A stretch of DNA of 64,000 bases from Polaromonas sp. (GTDB taxonomy: Bacteria; Pseudomonadota; Gammaproteobacteria; Burkholderiales; Burkholderiaceae_C), in the NCBI GenBank assembly GCA_013298815.1, contig JAAFJF010000004.1, forward strand, positions 1-64,000. The letters run 5' to 3'. A program made the position numbers and the translations under genes. Below, one piece after another: positions 3,087 to 59,247 of this stretch. Under the pieces are notes generated by a model, which saw only the letters and a list, made by a program, of their open reading frames with translations, ran no database searches and was not told the DNA's origin. How positions within the stretch are numbered: the first letter of the stretch is position 1; every line of letters begins with the position of its first letter.

Positions 3087-3136
3087 ACTCTATCCAGCGT
3101 ATTTACTGCCTGAGCAGCTATTAAATTTATAGTAAA
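3087..3136 (-). repeat. Dispersed 45-50 bp repeat, copy 1 (intergenic, ugpE-ugpC)
   Basis: Reads on the plus strand CCAGCGTATTTACTGCC, then TGAGCAGCTATT, then an AT-rich loop ending in ATAGT. This is the reverse complement of the family consensus. It fills most of the 132-base gap between ugpE and ugpC. Confidence 0.85.
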
Positions 3137-4165: not shown

Positions 4166-4177
4166 ATGAGAGCCTCG

Positions 4178-4240
4178 TCATTCCCGCGAAGGCGGGAATC
4201 CACGGTGGCGGGACATGGATTCCCGCCTTCGCGGGAATGA
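4178..4240. repeat. Paired inverted palindromic repeat (REPIN/dRS3-like), copy A
   Basis: Two perfectly complementary 25-base arms lie at 4178-4202 and 4216-4240, separated by 13 bases. Each arm is itself an imperfect palindrome with the core ATTCCCGCGAAGGCGGGAAT. The layout fits REP-type doublets, and the core fits the ATTCCC-N8-GGGAAT pattern of neisserial dRS3 repeats. It sits between ugpC and ugpQ and could fold into a long hairpin. A related copy lies upstream of prfA. Confidence 0.9.
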
Positions 4241-6664: not shown

Positions 6665-6710
6665 CTGAGCTAAACGTTTTACGACCCTTTACGACCTCAT
6701 CGTCGAACCG

Positions 6711-6804
6711 TCATTCCCGCGCAGGCGGGAATCCATGACCCCAAACGAATCCGACACCCTTTGAGCTTGAAATGACCTATGGATTCCCGCCTACGCGGGA
6801 ATGA
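6711..6804. repeat. Paired inverted palindromic repeat (REPIN/dRS3-like), copy B
   Basis: Arms at 6711-6735 and 6780-6804 are complementary over 25 bases with one mismatch and are separated by 44 bases. Each arm has the core ATTCCCGCG..CGGGAAT seen in copy A. Both copies are followed about 10-20 bases later by TAGATAATT and then by a gene start (ugpQ, prfA). The repeat unit may therefore extend into the promoter-like sequence. Confidence 0.88.
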
Positions 6805-13000: not shown

Positions 13001-13050
13001 CACTCTAGCCGGCGTTTTAACTGCCTAAGCAGCTATTATTTTTATAGCAA
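13001..13050 (-). repeat. Dispersed 45-50 bp repeat, copy 2 (intergenic, upstream of prmC)
   Basis: The plus strand reads CTCTAGCCGGCG, then TTTTAACTGCCTAAGCAGC, then TATTATTTTTATAGC, the reverse complement of the family consensus. It ends about 20 bases before the prmC start. Confidence 0.88.
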
Positions 13051-16596: not shown

Positions 16597-16607
16597 GCGG
16601 CTTAAAT

Positions 16608-16653
16608 GCTATTTAATCTGCAGCTACTCAGGCAGCAAATACGCTGGCTAGAG
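16608..16653 (+). repeat. Dispersed 45-50 bp repeat, copy 3 (intergenic, grxD-GST)
   Basis: Reads GCTATTTAATCTGCAGC, then TACTCAGGCAGCAAATACG, then CTGGCTAGAGC. The second hairpin half is ATCTGC rather than ATAGC. It lies between the grxD terminator and the 3' end of the glutathione transferase gene. Confidence 0.88.
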
Positions 16654-20580: not shown

Positions 20581-20614
20581 GGGTGGCTCCAACTTCGTCA
20601 AATACTAACTCAAA

Positions 20615-21307
20615 TCACCCTGCAAACTCCCACTTCTTCTTCGCCCCCAGCACGGCATCTGGATACGCCGCCTTCCCACGGCTGCCGTTGTAGCGGCCTA
20701 GGCCTAGGAAGAGGTCGCCGTTTTCGCGGTCTAGGTAGTGGCGCAGGATGACGCAGCCGAAGCGGATATTGGTTTGCATGTTGAAAAGATGGTCAGTCTT
20801 ATGTTTACCATCATCTTCAGCCAGCACACGCAGCCAAAACGGCATAATTTGCATGTAGCCGCGCGCGCCTACCCAGCTGATGGCGTATTTGCGGAAGTTG
20901 CTTTCTACTTGGATCAAACCCAGCACCAAAGCGGTGTCCAGCCCCGCACGCTTGCTTTCGTACCAAACGGTTTGCAAAAACTCTTTACGGGTTTGAAAGT
21001 CGCGTTTTTTGGGCTTCAAACGATCGCTCATCTCAGCAAGCCAACGCAGGTATTTTAGGTAAGACTCGGTGTCTTTGAATTCAGCTGGTCCAGGTATAGG
21101 CGGCGCAGTATTATGAACGGCAGCCCGCAAAGCGATGCGAACTGAGTCCATCATGGGCTCCTCCAGCTGCCTGCCAGCCTGAGATTGCTCCGAAAATAAT
21201 AGCGGTATAGGCAGTAAATACGCTGGGCGAAGTGCTTTTAGCAGTACTTTTCGCCTGTTTATTTTATTTATATCACTAAAATCAGCGCAATTCTCGTTCA
21301 ATCTCAC
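20615..21307 (-). CDS. Soluble lytic transglycosylase (SLT domain), secreted
   Basis: A 230-residue peptidoglycan-cleaving enzyme. The catalytic Glu lies in [14 protein letters not shown] near residue 146, followed by [12 protein letters not shown] and the [10 protein letters not shown] motif typical of the SLT fold. The N terminus has basic residues and then a hydrophobic stretch ([14 protein letters not shown]) that acts as the signal; this stretch is encoded by a copy of the dispersed repeat. The start is GTG, overlapping the proS stop by 4 bases (GTGA), so it is translated with proS. Confidence 0.88.
21185..21231 (+). repeat. Dispersed repeat, copy 4 (inside the lytic transglycosylase gene)
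   Basis: The plus strand reads TTGCTCCG-AAATAATAGC, then GGTATAGGCAGTAAATACG, then CTGGGCG. It is antisense to the gene and encodes the hydrophobic part of the signal peptide in frame. Confidence 0.8.
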
Positions 21308-25655: not shown

Positions 25656-25706
25656 ACTGTAGCCAGCGTATTTACTGCCTAAGCAGCTATTCAAAACATA
25701 GCAAAA
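25656..25706 (-). repeat. Dispersed repeat, copy 5 (intergenic, proB-obgE)
   Basis: The plus strand reads TGTAGCCAGCGTATTTACTG, then CCTAAGCAGCTATTC, then AAAACATAGCAAAA. It occupies about half of the proB-obgE gap. Confidence 0.9.
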
Positions 25707-32759: not shown

Positions 32760-32809
32760 CTCTAGCCAACGTATTTACTGCCTGAATAGCTACAAAAATA
32801 ATAGCAAAT
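32760..32809 (-). repeat. Dispersed repeat, copy 6 (intergenic, yacG-mutT)
   Basis: The plus strand reads CTCTAGCCAACGTATTTACTG, here CTCTAGCCAACG then TATTTACTGCCTGAATAGC, followed by TACAAAAATAATAGC. It lies between two convergent genes. Confidence 0.88.
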
Positions 32810-44531: not shown

Positions 44532-44582
44532 AATTTGCTATAATTTTAATAGCTACTCAGGCAGTTAATACGCCGGCTGAAG
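44532..44582 (+). repeat. Dispersed repeat, copy 7 (intergenic, mscL-pdxA)
   Basis: Reads TTTGCTATAATTTTAATAGC, then TACTCAGGCAGTTAATACG, then CCGGCTGAAGG. It is a close match to the consensus, between two convergent genes. Confidence 0.92.
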
Positions 44583-44611: not shown

Positions 44612-45730
44612 TCAACATTTGACTAATTTTTTAGCCATTTTGATAGCGGCTATCAAACTAGCAGCATCTGCAATACCCTGCCCTGCAATGTCAAAAGCCG
44701 TGCCGTGGTCTGGACTTGTGCGCACCAACGGCAAACCCAGCGTCACGTTTACCCCCTGCTCTACGCCAAGGTACTTAACAGGGATCAACCCTTGGTCGTG
44801 GTACATCGCGATCACAACGTCAAACTCGCCTAACTGCTTGATATTATTGAATAATTTATGCCGTGCTCGCATAAAAACCGTGTCTGGCGCAAACGGGCCA
44901 TGCACATCAATACCCTCTTTTTGAGCCGCTAAGATGGCCGGGGAAATGACCTCCATCTCCTCCCGCCCAAACAAACCGCCCTCACCCGCATGTGGATTTA
45001 AACCCGCCACAGCAATGCGCTGGCGAGGTTTTTGATGACCCGTTGGCTGGAAATTCTGTGGGGAATCTGCGACAGCATCCCCCTTCGTTCTGTGCAAAAA
45101 ATCACAGGTTATGCGAATAGTTTCAATCACGTTTTCGTAAGATACTGCCTCAATCGCGTCGCGCAGTGACATGTGAATGCTCACCAAAACGGTGCGCAAC
45201 TCCTCATTTGCCAGCATCATCCGGACTGGCACTTCTTTGATAGATTTGCCTAAAAATTCAGCAGATTCAGCCTGCAGCAGCTCGGTATGCCCGGGAAACT
45301 TCACCCCAGCCAGAGCCAAGGCCTCTTTGTGCAGCGGCGCAGTCACCAGCGCAGCAATTTGCCCCTTCAAGGCCGCCCTAGCCGCCCAAACCACCGCATC
45401 AGCCGCAGCTTTGCCTGAGGCAGCACTGATTTCCCCTAACTTATAAGCGTTGGAAATATCCGTTCTCGGCTCACCTATTTGTAGCACTCTAAGCAATGAA
45501 TATGCTGGCTGAGTGTCAATTTCAGCCTCGGGAATCGCTGCGATGCGCATAGCTGAGCCGACAAAACCCGCCGCCCGCTGCATGACCGCCACATCACCAA
45601 CCACAAAGCAGTTCTTAGTCAGCTCCGGCTCTTGCATGAACGCTTTGACGATGATTTCAGGCCCAATGCCAGAAGGGTCGCCCATGGTGATGGCGATAGC
45701 AGCGTTGGGAGCATTGGGTACTTGGCTCAT
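44612..45730 (-). CDS. pdxA: 4-hydroxythreonine-4-phosphate dehydrogenase
   Basis: A 372-residue enzyme of pyridoxal phosphate synthesis, longer than the usual 330-345. The start AIAITMGDPSGIGPEI, metal ligands in KFPGHTELL, LNPHAGEGGLFG and MYHDQGLIPVKYLG are intact. Extra residues occur near 68-85 (QPAYSLLRVLQIGEPR), where DNA matches the dispersed repeat, and near 215-235 (GDAVADSPQNFQPTGHQ). It overlaps the Nif3-like gene by 4 bases. Confidence 0.94.
   Translation of the reverse strand: MSQVPNAPNAAIAITMGDPSGIGPEIIVKAFMQEPELTKNCFVVGDVAVMQRAAGFVGSAMRIAAIPEAEIDTQPAYSLLRVLQIGEPRTDISNAYKLGEISAASGKAAADAVVWAARAALKGQIAALVTAPLHKEALALAGVKFPGHTELLQAESAEFLGKSIKEVPVRMMLANEELRTVLVSIHMSLRDAIEAVSYENVIETIRITCDFLHRTKGDAVADSPQNFQPTGHQKPRQRIAVAGLNPHAGEGGLFGREEMEVISPAILAAQKEGIDVHGPFAPDTVFMRARHKLFNNIKQLGEFDVVIAMYHDQGLIPVKYLGVEQGVNVTLGLPLVRTSPDHGTAFDIAGQGIADAASLIAAIKMAKKLVKC
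45478..45514 (+). repeat. Dispersed repeat, copy 8, partial (inside pdxA)
   Basis: The plus strand reads TTGTAGCACTCTAAGCAATG, continuing AATATGCTGGCTGAG. It matches the 3' two thirds of the consensus with several changes. It is antisense to pdxA and is read through in frame. Confidence 0.65.
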
Positions 45731-46542
45731 GCGGGGTTGTCGATTTCTATGAATTCATGTTCAATTTCCAGCTGAGCGGCCACATGCGCCGCTACCGCTG
45801 GCGCACCGTAGCGCTCAGTCGCGTGGTGACCGCAAGCAAAATAGGCAACACCGCATTCGCGAGCTAGATGGGCTTGGGGTTCGGATATTTCACCCGTGAT
45901 GAAGGCGTCTGCGCCAGCGGCGATGGCGGCTTCGAAGTAGCTTTGCGCGCCACCCGTGCACCATGCAATATTTTTAAATGCTACATTTTTCATAGCTGCT
46001 GAGGCAGTAAATACGCTGGTAACTTGCCTTTTTAAGGTGTTTTCTAGGTGTTTTTGAAGATTTTCAGCGTAAAAAGGGTGATTTTGAGTGTTTTTCTCGC
46101 AGCTTTGCGCAATATTTGCTATCCAACCCAATGATTGCTCACCAAAGTGGGTAATTTCGCCTCGCTCCCAGGCTTTTGGCGTGATAAATCCGAGTTTCTG
46201 CCCCAATTGCGCGTTATTACCCAGCTGCGGGTGGGCGTCTAGTGGTAGGTGGTAGGCGTAAAGGTTGATGTCGTGGGTGAGCAGCAGTTTCAGGCGCTCT
46301 TTCATCCAGCCAGTGACCACGCCGGTTTGTCCGCGCCAATACAGGCCGTGGTGGACAAAGATGGCATCGGCTTTTGCCTCTATTGCCGCTTCTATCAGAG
46401 CGCGGCTAGCAGTGACGCCAGAGACGATTTTGCGTATCTGCGGCTTGCCTTCAACCTGCAAGCCATTGGGTCCGTAGTCGGCGAAGCGTTCGGGCTGCAA
46501 CAGAGTGTTGAGGGCTTCGAGTAGGGTTTGTCTGTCCGTCAT
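45727..46542 (-). CDS. Nif3-like dinuclear metal center hexameric protein
   Basis: About 271 residues of the NIF3/YbgI family. Metal ligands lie in DAIFVHHGLYWRG, AYHLPLDAHPQLGNN and the C-terminal CGHHATERYG, and WCTGGAQSYFE is conserved. The biochemical role is unsettled; some homologues act as GTP cyclohydrolase-like or hydrolase enzymes. The start MTDRQTLLEALN at 46542 fits the family; an 89-codon upstream open extension runs into the divergent protease gene and is not used. The segment before WCTGG is encoded by a dispersed repeat. Confidence 0.9.
   Translation of the reverse strand: MTDRQTLLEALNTLLQPERFADYGPNGLQVEGKPQIRKIVSGVTASRALIEAAIEAKADAIFVHHGLYWRGQTGVVTGWMKERLKLLLTHDINLYAYHLPLDAHPQLGNNAQLGQKLGFITPKAWERGEITHFGEQSLGWIANIAQSCEKNTQNHPFYAENLQKHLENTLKRQVTSVFTASAAMKNVAFKNIAWCTGGAQSYFEAAIAAGADAFITGEISEPQAHLARECGVAYFACGHHATERYGAPAVAAHVAAQLEIEHEFIEIDNPA
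45976..46020 (+). repeat. Dispersed repeat, copy 9 (inside the Nif3-like gene)
   Basis: The plus strand reads AAATGCTACATTTTTCATAGC, given as AAATGCTACATTTTTC then ATAGCTGCTGAGGCAGTAAA, then TACGCTGGT. It is antisense to the gene and encodes TSVFTASAAMKNVAF in frame. Confidence 0.85.
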
Positions 46543-48725: not shown

Positions 48726-48733
48726 TAGGGTTA

Positions 48734-48836
48734 ATCCGAGGAGCGATGCAGTTCAAATAAGTTGAACGAGGCTCGGACAGCATGTTTGGTTGAAGCACTA
48801 AAGTTCAACGGCACTGCACCAACCGCGCTCACCCAC
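48734..48836 (+). promoter_or_regulatory. S-adenosylhomocysteine (SAH) riboswitch
   Basis: The block CCGAGGAGCGATGCAG is the hallmark 5' core of SAH riboswitches. CCGAG (48736-48740) pairs with CTCGG (48772-48776), GTTCAA with TTGAAC forms an inner stem, and the 3' block ACGGCACTGCACC then CCGCGCTCACC supplies the conserved partner of GAGCG for the pseudoknot. The element lies about 90 bases upstream of ahcY. In known cases SAH binding raises expression of ahcY and methyl-cycle genes, which fits the ahcY-tlyA-metF operon here. Confidence 0.9.
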
Positions 48837-48840
48837 TGTT

Positions 48841-50512: not shown

Positions 50513-50570
50513 ATTTGCTATACTTATAATAGCGCTACTGGCAATAAAAATGCTGGATAGCGCTATTTTT
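50513..50570 (+). repeat. Dispersed repeat, copy 10, diverged (intergenic, ahcY-tlyA)
   Basis: Reads TTTGCTATACTTATAATAGC, then GCTACTGGCAATAAAAATG, then CTGGATAGCGCTATT. The 5' hairpin and the general spacing are kept, and the right half has extra changes. It sits 20 bases before tlyA. Confidence 0.75.
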
Positions 50571-50590
50571 ACCTCTAAGACTACTATTTA

Positions 50591-51664
50591 ATGCGTGCAG
50601 ATCAACTTCTTGTCCAACGTGGCTTAGCCAGCACCCGCGCACAAGCGCAGCGGCTCATTGCCAGCGGTGTGCAATGGCTCAAACTGGGTCACCACCACAC
50701 CGCGCAAGGGGCGATGACAGGCGCTGAAATCGGCGCTGCCAGCAGCTCTGGCTCCGCACTCTATTGGCAACGCATCGCCAAAAACGGCGACATTTTGCCC
50801 GATGACGCGCAAATTGAGTTGCTCAACGATGCTGAAGCCCGCTACGTCTCGCGCGGTGGTTTGAAGCTTGAAGGTGCTCTACAAGCGCTTGGTTTATCTG
50901 TCAAAGACGCAACGTGCTTAGACGTGGGTCAATCTACTGGCGGGTTTACTGATTGCCTGCTCCAACAAAGCGCAGCACGCGTTGTGGGCATTGACGTTGG
51001 ATTTGGGCAGTTGCATGACAAGCTGCGCTCGGACGAACGCGTTTTGTGTTTCGAGCGCGTGAATGCGCGTGAGCCTGGAGTGATTGCAGCTGAAATTGCT
51101 AAGCTATTGGCTGGTGAAGATGAGGGAGAAGGCGACGATTTTGGTTCCGCGTTTGACGATGATAACTACGATGATGCCGAATTCACTCCTAAAAACATAG
51201 CTACACAGGCAATAAATACGCTGGCTAACATATCAAATGCTGAGGTAAATAGCGATATTTTTGAGCCTGAATTCGTAGCCGAATTCGATTTCATCGTGGG
51301 CGACCTGTCGTTCATCTCTCAAACCCTCGTCTTACCCGCTATTGCGCCACTGTTAAAACCCAACGGCTGCTTGGTGATGTTAGTCAAACCGCAGTTTGAG
51401 CTGAATTTTGGTCAAGTCGGCAAAGGCGGCATCGTGCGCGAAGCGACTTTGTATGAGCAAGTTGAAAAGCGTGTACGCGATGCTTATGCAGAACAAGGTT
51501 TGACCGTTCACGCTTGGCTAGAGTCACCCATTCAAGGTGGTGACGGCAACCGCGAGTTTTTTATCCATGCTTCTAAAATAACAGCAGAGGTAAAAACCAA
51601 AGTCTCGACCACTGCAGCCACTAAAGTAAACGCAAAACCAAAAGTTATAGCTAAAACAAAATAA
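50591..51664 (+). CDS. TlyA-family RNA methyltransferase with acidic insertion
   Basis: A 357-residue protein; TlyA-family rRNA 2'-O-methyltransferases usually have 240-270. The N-terminal S4 domain (MRADQLLVQRGLASTRAQAQ) and the FtsJ-like domain (YVSRGGLKLEGAL, CLDVGQSTGGFTDCLL, KPQFE) are present. Between about residues 176 and 234 there is an acidic low-complexity insertion (GEDEGEGDDFGSAFDDDNYD) followed by a segment encoded by the dispersed repeat. A Lys/Ala/Thr-rich tail ends the protein. It probably methylates rRNA and lies between ahcY and metF. Confidence 0.88.
   Translation: MRADQLLVQRGLASTRAQAQRLIASGVQWLKLGHHHTAQGAMTGAEIGAASSSGSALYWQRIAKNGDILPDDAQIELLNDAEARYVSRGGLKLEGALQALGLSVKDATCLDVGQSTGGFTDCLLQQSAARVVGIDVGFGQLHDKLRSDERVLCFERVNAREPGVIAAEIAKLLAGEDEGEGDDFGSAFDDDNYDDAEFTPKNIATQAINTLANISNAEVNSDIFEPEFVAEFDFIVGDLSFISQTLVLPAIAPLLKPNGCLVMLVKPQFELNFGQVGKGGIVREATLYEQVEKRVRDAYAEQGLTVHAWLESPIQGGDGNREFFIHASKITAEVKTKVSTTAATKVNAKPKVIAKTK
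51196..51229 (+). repeat. Dispersed repeat, copy 11, partial (inside tlyA)
   Basis: Reads CATAGCTACACAGGCAATAA, continuing ATACGCTGGCTAAC. It matches the consensus from the second hairpin half to the end. It is read in frame as IATQAINTLAN within the insertion of the TlyA-like protein. Confidence 0.85.
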
Positions 51665-53510: not shown

Positions 53511-55316
53511 ATGCAGTTATTTGCGAAATTTCAATCGTTCAAGGCCTTCGTCCAACGCGTTGTCAAATTGGCAATGCCTTACTTTCAGTCTGATCAAAAA
53601 TGGCAAGCGCGCAGTTTACTTCTGGCCATCGTACTGCTGAATTTAGCGACTGTGTACATGGCTGTGCAGTTCAACGACTGGAACGGCGTGTTTTACGATG
53701 CGCTGCAAAACAAAGACGAGCCCGTGTTTTGGAAACAGCTCACTCGCTTCACCTATCTGGCTTTTGGCAGCATTGTGATCGTGGTCTATAAGTTTTACCT
53801 CACACAAGTGCTAGAAATGCGTTGGCGGCAGTGGATGACGACCTATTATTTACAGCGCTGGCTAAGCAACCAAACTTTTTACAAGCTAGAGCTCACGCGT
53901 TTTACAACGCTTGCGGGGGTTGACCAGAACTCTATCAATACCGACAACCCAGACCAACGGATCTCGGAAGACGTGAACCAGTTCACCACGCAGACGATTT
54001 CGTTGTGCATGGGTTTACTCAATTCTGTAGTTACTTTGGTTAGTTTTGTAGGTATTCTTTGGGGGCTCTCTGGCGCATTTTCATTTGTCTTGGGCGGCAT
54101 CAGCTACACCATTCCAGGTTACATGCTTTGGGCGGCTGTGGCGTATTGCCTCGTTGGCAGTGTGCTGACGCACTACATTGGCAAATCGCAGATCAGCTTG
54201 AACTTTTTTCAACAAAAGTATGAGGCAGATTTCCGCCATCACATGGTGCGCGTGCGTGAGTACAGCGAATCTATTGCTTTAGACAAAGGCGAAAGCGTAG
54301 AGAAGACTCAGCTCGATACGCGGTTTACGACGGTCATCAGCAACTATCTAGCTCTTATCAAAGCGCAAAAGAACCTGATTTGGTTTACCAGTTTTTTTGG
54401 TCAAGCTGCTATTATTTTTCCGTTCCTCGTTGCAGCGCCGCGTTTTTTCAGCGGGGCGATTCAACTGGGGCAATTGATGCAAATTTCTAGCGCATTTGGG
54501 CAGGTGCAAAACTCGCTAAGTTGGTTTGTAGACAGCTACAGTGGTTTGGCTAGCTGGCGCGCTACAACAGACCGTTTGACCAGTTTTGACGAAAGCATGG
54601 CAAAGAGCGAAGCACTCATGGCGACACAAACCGTCAGCAGTGTCGATTCAAACAGCTTATCGACCACCGATTTAACGCTATCGCGCCCTAACGGTAAGGT
54701 GCTGCTGGCAAATGCGGCGCTCACCGCCCGTGTGGGCGATGCTATTTTGCTCAACGGCCCCTCGGGCAGCGGTAAATCGACACTATTCCGCGCCTTTGCA
54801 GGTATCTGGCCATTCAGCAAAGGGCAAATTCACATGCCTGCAAACGCGATGTTTATCCCGCAGCGACCTTACTTTCCAAACGGTTCATTGCGCGATGCAC
54901 TGGCCTACCCCGAACCAGCAGCAAAATATGACGATGCAGCGCTGCAAACAGCGCTCACAGATGCCTTGTTGCCGCAATTGGCGAATCGCTTGGACGATAA
55001 AGAAGCGTGGGGGCAAATGCTTTCAGGCGGTGAGCAGCAGCGTTTAGCCATTGCCCGTGTGTTGCTCAAAAAACCGCAATGGATTTTTGCCGATGAGGCA
55101 ACCAGTGCATTGGATGTGGAGGCTGAAAATACCCTCTATAAACGACTTATAGCCGGCGTATTACTTGCTAAAGGCGCTATTATTTCTATAGCTCATAGGC
55201 CTAGTGTCGCAGCTTTTCACAACACAACGTTGACGCTTGAAAAGGCTATTGCCACCGATGCTTCAAACGCGTCAACTGCAGCGACTTACTCGGTAGCCGC
55301 TATCCACCGGTCATAA
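53511..55316 (+). CDS. ABC transporter, fused permease and ATPase (SbmA/YddA type)
   Basis: A 601-residue exporter-like half transporter. The membrane domain (residues about 20-330) has six hydrophobic segments and the family motifs [30 protein letters not shown] and [16 protein letters not shown]. The ATPase domain has [15 protein letters not shown] near residue 420, [16 protein letters not shown] near 503 and [11 protein letters not shown] near 524. The substrate is unknown; peptides, heme or vitamin B12 derivatives are known in the family. AGAGGAA lies upstream of the start. The H-loop region is encoded by a dispersed-repeat copy, and the 3' end overlaps queC by 31 bases on the other strand. 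Confidence 0.9.
55149..55193 (-). repeat. Dispersed repeat, copy 12 (inside the ABC transporter gene)
   Basis: The plus strand reads TAGCCGGCGTATTACTTGC, then TAAAGGCGCTATTATTTC, then TATAGC. It aligns without gaps to copy 2 at 35 of 43 bases by hand count. It encodes [16 protein letters not shown] in frame, up to the H-loop His. Confidence 0.78.
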
Positions 55317-55987
55317 CCCTTAGCTCGTAAATCGCAGGCTGGGCATTCGCCGCAGCCGTAACCCCAAGCTTGGCGATGCACACGGTCGCCAAGATAGCAG
55401 GTGTGGGTGTGTTCAATGATCAAATCGACCAAAGGCGGCCCGCCAAGGGAAGCGGCCAAGGCCCAAGTGTCGGCTTTGTCAATCCACATCAGCGGCGTTT
55501 CTATCAAAAACCGCTTGTCCATCCCTAAAGAAAGCGCCAATTGCATTGCTTTCATGGTGTCGTCGCGGCAGTCGGGATAGCCAGAAAAGTCCGTTTCGCA
55601 AACACCAGTCACCATCACTTGCAAGTCACGCCGGTAGGCCAAGGCAGCAGCCAAGGTCAAAAATAGCAGATTGCGACCTGGCACAAAGGTGTTTGGTAGT
55701 CCTGAGCTTTCCATTTTGAAAGCCACATCACGCGTCAGCGAGGTTTCACTCACCTGCCCAAGCACGCCCAAATCGAGCAAGTGGTCTTCACCCAGTTTGT
55801 GCGCCCACTGCGGGAATTGCAGCTTGATTTGCTCTAAGACACGCAGACGGGCTTCCAGCTCAACGCTGTGCCGCTGGCGATAGTCAAACGCAATCGTCTC
55901 GACACGTTCATACTTGCTCAGTGCAAGCGCTAAGCAGGTGGTGGAATCTTGACCACCGGAAAATAGAACGAGTGCGCTGGTATGCAT
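55286..55987 (-). CDS. queC: 7-cyano-7-deazaguanine synthase
   Basis: A 233-residue enzyme of queuosine synthesis that converts 7-carboxy-7-deazaguanine to preQ0. The PP-loop [15 protein letters not shown] is near residue 9. The C-terminal zinc site has four Cys in HTCYLGDRV and [14 protein letters not shown]. It is convergent with the ABC transporter, with a 31-base overlap. Confidence 0.96.
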
Positions 55988-59178: not shown

Positions 59179-59200
59179 AAAATCAGTTAAATACGCGTTT

Positions 59201-59247
59201 ACCCAGCGTATTTACTGCCTAAAAAGCTATTAAAAATATAGCAGAAA
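59201..59247 (-). repeat. Dispersed repeat, copy 13 (intergenic, after the Lrp gene)
   Basis: The plus strand reads ACCCAGCGTATTTACTGCC, then TAAAAAGCTATTAAAAATA, then TAGCAGAAA. It is the reverse complement of the consensus, next to a bidirectional terminator. Confidence 0.9.

Follow-up and report, generated by a model that had tools for sequence, protein, structure and literature searches.

The locus considered here raises the question of how a dispersed DNA repeat could come to lie in frame within the ATPase of an ABC transporter. The question has two parts: (i) whether the segment is truly a member of a repeat family, or a conserved peptide that happens to be written in similar letters; and (ii) if it is a member, by what route it entered the codons. 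The window refers throughout to the whole stretch of 64,000 nucleotides of Polaromonas sp. DNA that was analyzed, and its features are collected in Table 1.

The host protein is an ordinary member of the SbmA/BacA-like ABC transporters, and the repeat is a feature of its codons at the DNA level. Pfam scores are above cut-off for PF06472 (192.7 bits), PF05992 (138.8 bits) and PF00005 (67.5 bits), and among solved structures the chain 6tqe is closest (E = 1.2e-94). Because the ISVSHRP of 6tqe aligns with ISIAHRP in the window's protein, the repeat site can be placed at the H-loop, with the catalytic histidine as residue 562. A convergent ORF (55286-55987, minus strand), presumably QueC judging by motif, overlaps the 3′ end of the transporter gene with its own end by about 30 bases.

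Table 1. Transporter gene and repeat copies in the window
Feature	Position	Strand	Score or basis
ABC transporter ORF, 601 aa (ABC_membrane_2 / SbmA_BacA-like membrane part, ABC_tran ATPase)	53511..55316	+	Pfam scan
Repeat core, 45 bases, in ABC gene	55149..55193	+	40.0 bits; 35/45 vs 13005 copy
Weak left arm of repeat	55128..55148	+	left-arm score -1.7
Repeat copy	3090..3134	+	68.8 bits
Repeat copy, reference of the earlier note	13005..13049	+	64.4 bits
Repeat copy	16607..16651	-	52.4 bits
Repeat copy in ORF 20614-21307 (-), same position in relatives G003, G068, G069	21186..21230	-	43.2 bits; orthologues
Repeat copy	25659..25703	+	63.8 bits
Repeat copy	32762..32806	+	61.4 bits
Repeat copy	44536..44580	-	63.1 bits
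Weak repeat copy	45468..45512	-	21.3 bits
Repeat copy	45979..46023	-	56.0 bits
Repeat copy	50516..50560	-	45.0 bits
Repeat copy antisense in ORF 50590-51664 (+), common to G003	51184..51228	-	49.4 bits; orthologue 49 bits
Repeat copy	59199..59243	+	64.2 bits

The repeat consists of a core of about 45 bases and a left arm of about 20 bases. Its palindromic half, GCTATTATTTTTATAGC with at most 3 mismatches, is matched 11 times in the window, where 0.12 matches are expected; a 32-base core has 254 matches in the genome and 0 in the control; and 13 sites in the window reach at least 20 bits, the transporter site included. Scores come from eight genome samples, each with one 45-column model from whose training the H-loop copies were left out. 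The smallest sample (G061) comprises about 120 kb and the largest (G062) about 460 kb, and the models of G005 and G061 are built on only 22 and 21 copies; the PWM thresholds were set by us, and ORFs are greedy calls rather than annotation.

By these measures, the segment in the transporter gene is a real coding member of the family. It is identical to the copy at 13005-13049, on the same strand, at 35 of 45 positions without gaps (35 of 43 if only the inner stretch is counted), and it fills codons 547-561 in frame, the next codon being that of the switch His562. Its score was obtained with a model trained on copies outside the transporter gene, under which no other sense-strand stretch of that gene scores above -23.1 bits, and a model made from spacer copies alone still gives the site 35.0 bits. 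The 7-base spacer between GCTAT and ATAGC, which is fixed in the family, is present in this copy, and the gene's two ATA codons both fall within the repeat segment. The in-frame dispersed repeat described in the earlier note is therefore confirmed.

A simple alternative is that amino-acid constraint and chance together produced the resemblance, the conserved H-loop peptide merely looking like the palindromic half of the repeat. The 3′ half does encode the conserved AIISIAH, for which GCTATTATTTCTATAGC is one possible coding, and this likeness may have seeded exchange. When the segment was resampled synonymously with the gene's own codon usage, however, the mean score was -7.2 (sd 8.4), and none of 200,000 recodings reached 40.0 bits; of nine further orthologues resampled in the same way, eight likewise had none in 200,000, and one (L010) had 6. 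Many orthologues write the same H-loop motif in other codons, and the unconstrained 5′ half matches too, differently by genus. Unless the codon null is badly off, chance combined with codon constraint is therefore rejected, and we consider it very improbable; amino-acid constraint alone, the explanation that the earlier note had set against its own proposal, fails on the same resampling.

The repeat is patchy over Comamonadaceae and occurs in genus-specific 'dialects'. The core AGCAGCTAT-N7-ATAGCA, with at most 1 mismatch, was found in 77 of 200 genomes of this family, ten or more times in 43. With a spacer of 7 bases there are 237 matches in G000 and 214 in G003, compared with 1 and 1 for a spacer of 6, and the 6-base control gives at most 2 in any genome. 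A left block specific to the window's genus, TAGCCRGCGTATTTAYTGCC, has 430, 225, 221 and 459 matches in four genomes of that genus and 0 in 14 others; a Rhodoferax-type block, TAGCCCYCGT-N6-TGCGCAAG, has 222 matches in G062 and 220 in G065, with 0 to 4 in the window's genus. In one genome of the window's genus (G001), the 225 matches to the genus left block contrast with just 5 matches to the right palindrome that the dialects have in common, which may represent a sub-dialect or a loss of the right half. Copies in the G003 sample are spaced close to randomly (CV 0.87), Watson-Crick covariation in the GCTAT/ATAGC stem is not clear, and viral contigs had 0 and 2 exact repeat matches.

At the H-loop, one and the same set of codons is written in the own-genus dialect here, and in Rhodoferax it is written in that genus's dialect. 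Under the model of its own genome, the H-loop site scores 40.0 bits in G000, 54.4 in the sister species G003, 49.3 in G005, and 51.1 and 46.5 in the Rhodoferax genes L070 and L080. Three of these five sites are above the 75th percentile or the median of true copies (G003 being above its median), and the G000 site is in the lowest quarter, between the 5th and 25th percentiles. Genes of the window's genus reach 40 to 56 bits when scored with own-genus models (about 30 for L010) and 15 to 27 with Rhfx61, a Rhodoferax model. For L070 and L080 the scores are 51 and 47 with the models of their own genomes, and 18 with the G000 model. Where groups with different dialects have a coding site in common, the own dialect scored higher in 35 of 36 leave-one-out comparisons (18 sites or pairs), a figure to be read with the facts that some pairs come from the same genes, the transporter included, and that sites were chosen by own-model score, which favors the own-dialect result.

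When 85 orthologues of the transporter were scanned whole, sense-strand matches of at least 20 bits fell at two places only, the H-loop and the linker between the membrane part and the ATPase, all in frame 0. The H-loop copy is present in 17 of the 85 rows, from 15 genomes, and these include other genera, so that the site does not go back to one event that happened recently in this genome alone. A linker copy is likewise found in 17 of the 85 rows, some of which have both; it is located at about residue 360 of the orthologues (e.g., L266:9759-9803 in G065) and is length-neutral. Two antisense matches overlap the H-loop (L011 and L085), and these are from one genome, the rows L011 and L085, like L013 and L099, being duplicates. 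Among the 29 of 81 rows scored with all eight models, those of Variovorax, Hydrogenophaga, Comamonas testosteroni and Limnohabitans gave no H-loop signal, and of the Polaromonas rows in this set three had no signal and two a weak one. In the rows from these four other genera the flanks are conserved and the peptide is similar, which is the pattern that the earlier note had proposed to look for in relatives.

All of the genomes with an H-loop copy for which a genome count was made carry the repeat family (the genome of L073 was outside the count), and four genomes with few or no matches (G073, G074, G075 and G076, with 1, 20, 1 and 0) have no H-loop copy. In a quick tree of the gene, rows with the H-loop copy form clusters yet remain patchy, with 4 changes counted against other labelled rows only, so that the tree would fit one origin of the copy as well as several. 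Two orthologues come from records titled Gammaproteobacteria (L085) and Klebsiella pneumoniae (L146); their transporter genes are close to Comamonadaceae (66% and 49% to A1), and the titles may be wrong.

The protein length is normal, as had been supposed. Twelve of the 13 nearest orthologues align gapless with the window's protein, the exception (L014) having 20 extra residues, and nine more distant rows have 2 to 4 residues fewer, in an alignment made without rows L022, L029, L031, L034 and L036 (wrong ORFs) and without L033 and L037. The distance from the DE motif to the SIAH motif is equal in 78 of 81 rows, whether the copy is present or absent; this count omits L090, L111, L127 and L135, where the motif could not be placed, and the shortened L132, L139, L144 and L145. 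These lengths and the DE-SIAH spacing speak against plain insertion at the H-loop site. The earlier proposal that native sequence was replaced is borne out better for the DNA than for the protein, in which the H-loop residues G-A-I-I-S-I-A-H are kept.

The H-loop copy is ordinary within its genome, and unusual as a general phenomenon. Of the 424 modelled copies, 197 (46%) are within ORFs as we called them, and 37 of 95 in this genome, which does not agree with the earlier remark that repeat sequence inside a catalytic domain is out of the ordinary. Copies in ORFs scoring at least 30 bits (n = 174) favor one frame on each strand (72 of 90 sense and 63 of 84 antisense). Coding copies span most of the element, since the left arm averages +6.1 in ORFs compared with 12.4 in spacers and -16.0 for random sequence in G000; the H-loop copy, at -1.7, has a weak one. 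In G003, copies of 50 and 52 bits (L167:3979-4023 and L156:449-493) are found in well conserved domains with native residues kept, and we take the host domains, from their motifs, to be adenosine deaminase and lipid A acyltransferase.

Comparison with orthologues that lack the copy (at least 55% identity, n = 68) gives a mixed picture. Only 31 are gap-free (46%) against a background of 87%; in 5 the orthologue is shorter by 11 to 15 residues, and the remainder show small differences. Because the gap-free rate is under the background, these coding sites are indel-prone, and insertion may account for some of the copies. When the copy is present in both orthologues, gaps are absent from 56 of 61 comparisons. 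For the 31 pairs without gaps, native-residue identity is 0.39 as compared with 0.14 for swapped copies, and is higher in 30 of 31. Among 399 orthologous spacers, 35 have a copy on one side only, and the copy side is longer by a median of 64 bases, although some cases are counted from both sides and a longer spacer may just have room for more copies. Many coding copies are thus length-neutral with native residues, and spacer copies look inserted. Closely related pairs show piecemeal differences, which point mutation could give.

The spacer copies with their 64 or so additional bases, together with the few coding copies that have 11-15 extra residues, are what would be expected if a REP/MITE-like mobile repeat had entered the gene by insertion and the fold had tolerated it. 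A Y1 transposase (RAYT-like) gene, present in 23 of 23 genomes tested, could be in keeping with this, and repeats adjoin it in 3 of 9 carriers (G000, G003 and G061). However, genomes that lack the repeat have the Y1 gene just as regularly, the other six carriers have no adjoining repeat, the H-loop site lacks extra length in 78 of the 81 rows counted above, and native residues are kept. We regard such an insertion as improbable for the H-loop. In G000 (contig C71), the repeats at L280:544-588 and 1379-1423 flank the genome's single Y1 gene, and in G003 and G061 one repeat is beside it.

It is also conceivable that the transporter gene was itself the source of the repeat family, given that its H-loop site is occupied in several genera. 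The left arm, though, is strong in spacers and weak in the transporter copy, a single seeding would not track later genus-specific forms, and other genes host copies equally well; we give this origin very little credence.

The best reading, and one that we consider moderately probable, is that the codons were overwritten in place by recombination with the repeat family, with protein selection as the filter. On this view, DNA that bears the repeat would recombine with the gene or serve as template for its conversion, so that codons are replaced at unchanged length, and selection on the ATPase would retain G555, A556, I557, S559, I560, A561 and His562. If exchange is ongoing, the site would follow the dialect of its own genus. 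The distribution of scores in the G000 sample is two-peaked, with 92 windows of at least 25 bits and 10 between 0 and 25; the scarcity of half-formed sites favors copying, together with decay, over slow build-up. Family membership, the excess over codon constraint, the presence or absence across genera, the unchanged length at this site and the dialect match are direct results; that recombination wrote these codons, rather than successive selected point mutations, is our inference, as is any driver of the process. Counting against overwriting are the commoner indels at coding sites, the insert-like spacer copies, the piecemeal differences, the weakness of the G000 site and the choice of dialect-test sites by own-model score. 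No donor copy, conversion tract or tract ends were identified.

An alternative that we think rather unlikely, while taking it seriously, is evolution in place by selection or drive for a recognized DNA signal, in the manner of DNA uptake sequences, where mutation and preferential uptake or binding would pull sites toward the motif as the protein is kept. Genus dialects, length-neutral coding sites, variable protein regions, both orientations and the frame preference would all be accommodated, and the uptake sequences of Neisseria, as described in the accessible text of two reports, share several such features and often arise by recombination (PMC2397512; PMC3630211). The core, at 45 columns and 34-52 bits, is nevertheless far above the 10-mers searched in what is accessible of PMC3630211; there are few intermediate scores, the spacer copies look inserted, and no receptor is known. 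ComEC is found in 32 of 32 genomes, with the repeat present or absent, and is therefore non-discriminating. Overwriting by recombination remains our preferred explanation for the H-loop copy.

The comparison with Neisseriaceae can be extended. In the accessible parts of those reports, the uptake sequences are like the present repeat in having hundreds of copies, genus-linked dialects and in-gene sites, and new uptake sites are too diverged from their homologues for point mutation (PMC3630211; PMC2397512). They are unlike it in that the motif here is much longer, and Comamonadaceae have 0 occurrences in the survey as far as it is accessible (PMC3630211). A broader proposal, which we advance tentatively and hold to be doubtful, is that Comamonadaceae have a signal system for uptake or recombination whose recognition sequence, roughly 65 bases long, exists in genus dialects, and which would keep rewriting genes in place down to the codons beside catalytic residues. 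The H-loop copy would then be one of hundreds, and the shift of dialect at fixed coding positions would mark changes of the recognizer.

Two other repeat families invite comparison, each as characterized in the accessible text of its report. Rickettsia palindromic elements likewise place a repeat-encoded peptide in frame in unrelated genes; they are in-frame insertions of about 150 bases, whereas the site here is length-neutral and keeps native residues (PMC10969869). The betaproteobacterial repeat element BRE is, like the present repeat, dispersed in Comamonadaceae and relatives with some coding copies, but is about 90 bases long with 69% G+C and up to 29 copies, while the present repeat is shorter, A+T-rich in parts and far more frequent (PMC3110155). 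Identity with BRE is rejected on length and G+C.

The repeat family is known but unstudied, its Polaromonas form being in print, in the accessible sections of the source, as a motif without assigned function. In Polaromonas naphthalenivorans CJ2, the statistical motif ATAGCT(N)22CAAAAG has 125 copies, of which 101 are intergenic, 18 in genes and 34 between convergent genes (PMC5217627). Read on the other strand, as CTTTTG(N)22AGCTAT, it agrees in both sequence and spacing with the consensus from the Polaromonas sample G069, on which the match rests. The in-gene share is 14% for the CJ2 motif and 46% here, the former counted with an exact motif and the latter with a model and our own ORF calls. 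Dialects, a comparison of coding sites and other genera are not given in the accessible sections of that source (PMC5217627), and a search of the open-access literature brought up no report of such dialects, or of coding copies that leave protein length unchanged, for Comamonadaceae.

Bacterial repeats are usually viewed as spacer elements or as insertions. Here, one family has left length-neutral, in-frame traces in many genes, with native residues kept and genus-specific forms followed, even next to a catalytic histidine. It offers a direct test bed for concerted repeat evolution in bacteria and for the question whether protein change can be driven by signal-like sequence. It also calls for caution, because residues in such segments may reflect pressure at the DNA level and not protein function.

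Two further elements of the window may be mentioned. An SAH riboswitch lies at 48732-48837 (47.2 bits), and another short repeat, of the CGTCATTCCCGCG-GGCGGGAATCCA type, occurs at 4176-4202 and 6709-6735, the two copies being 96% alike.
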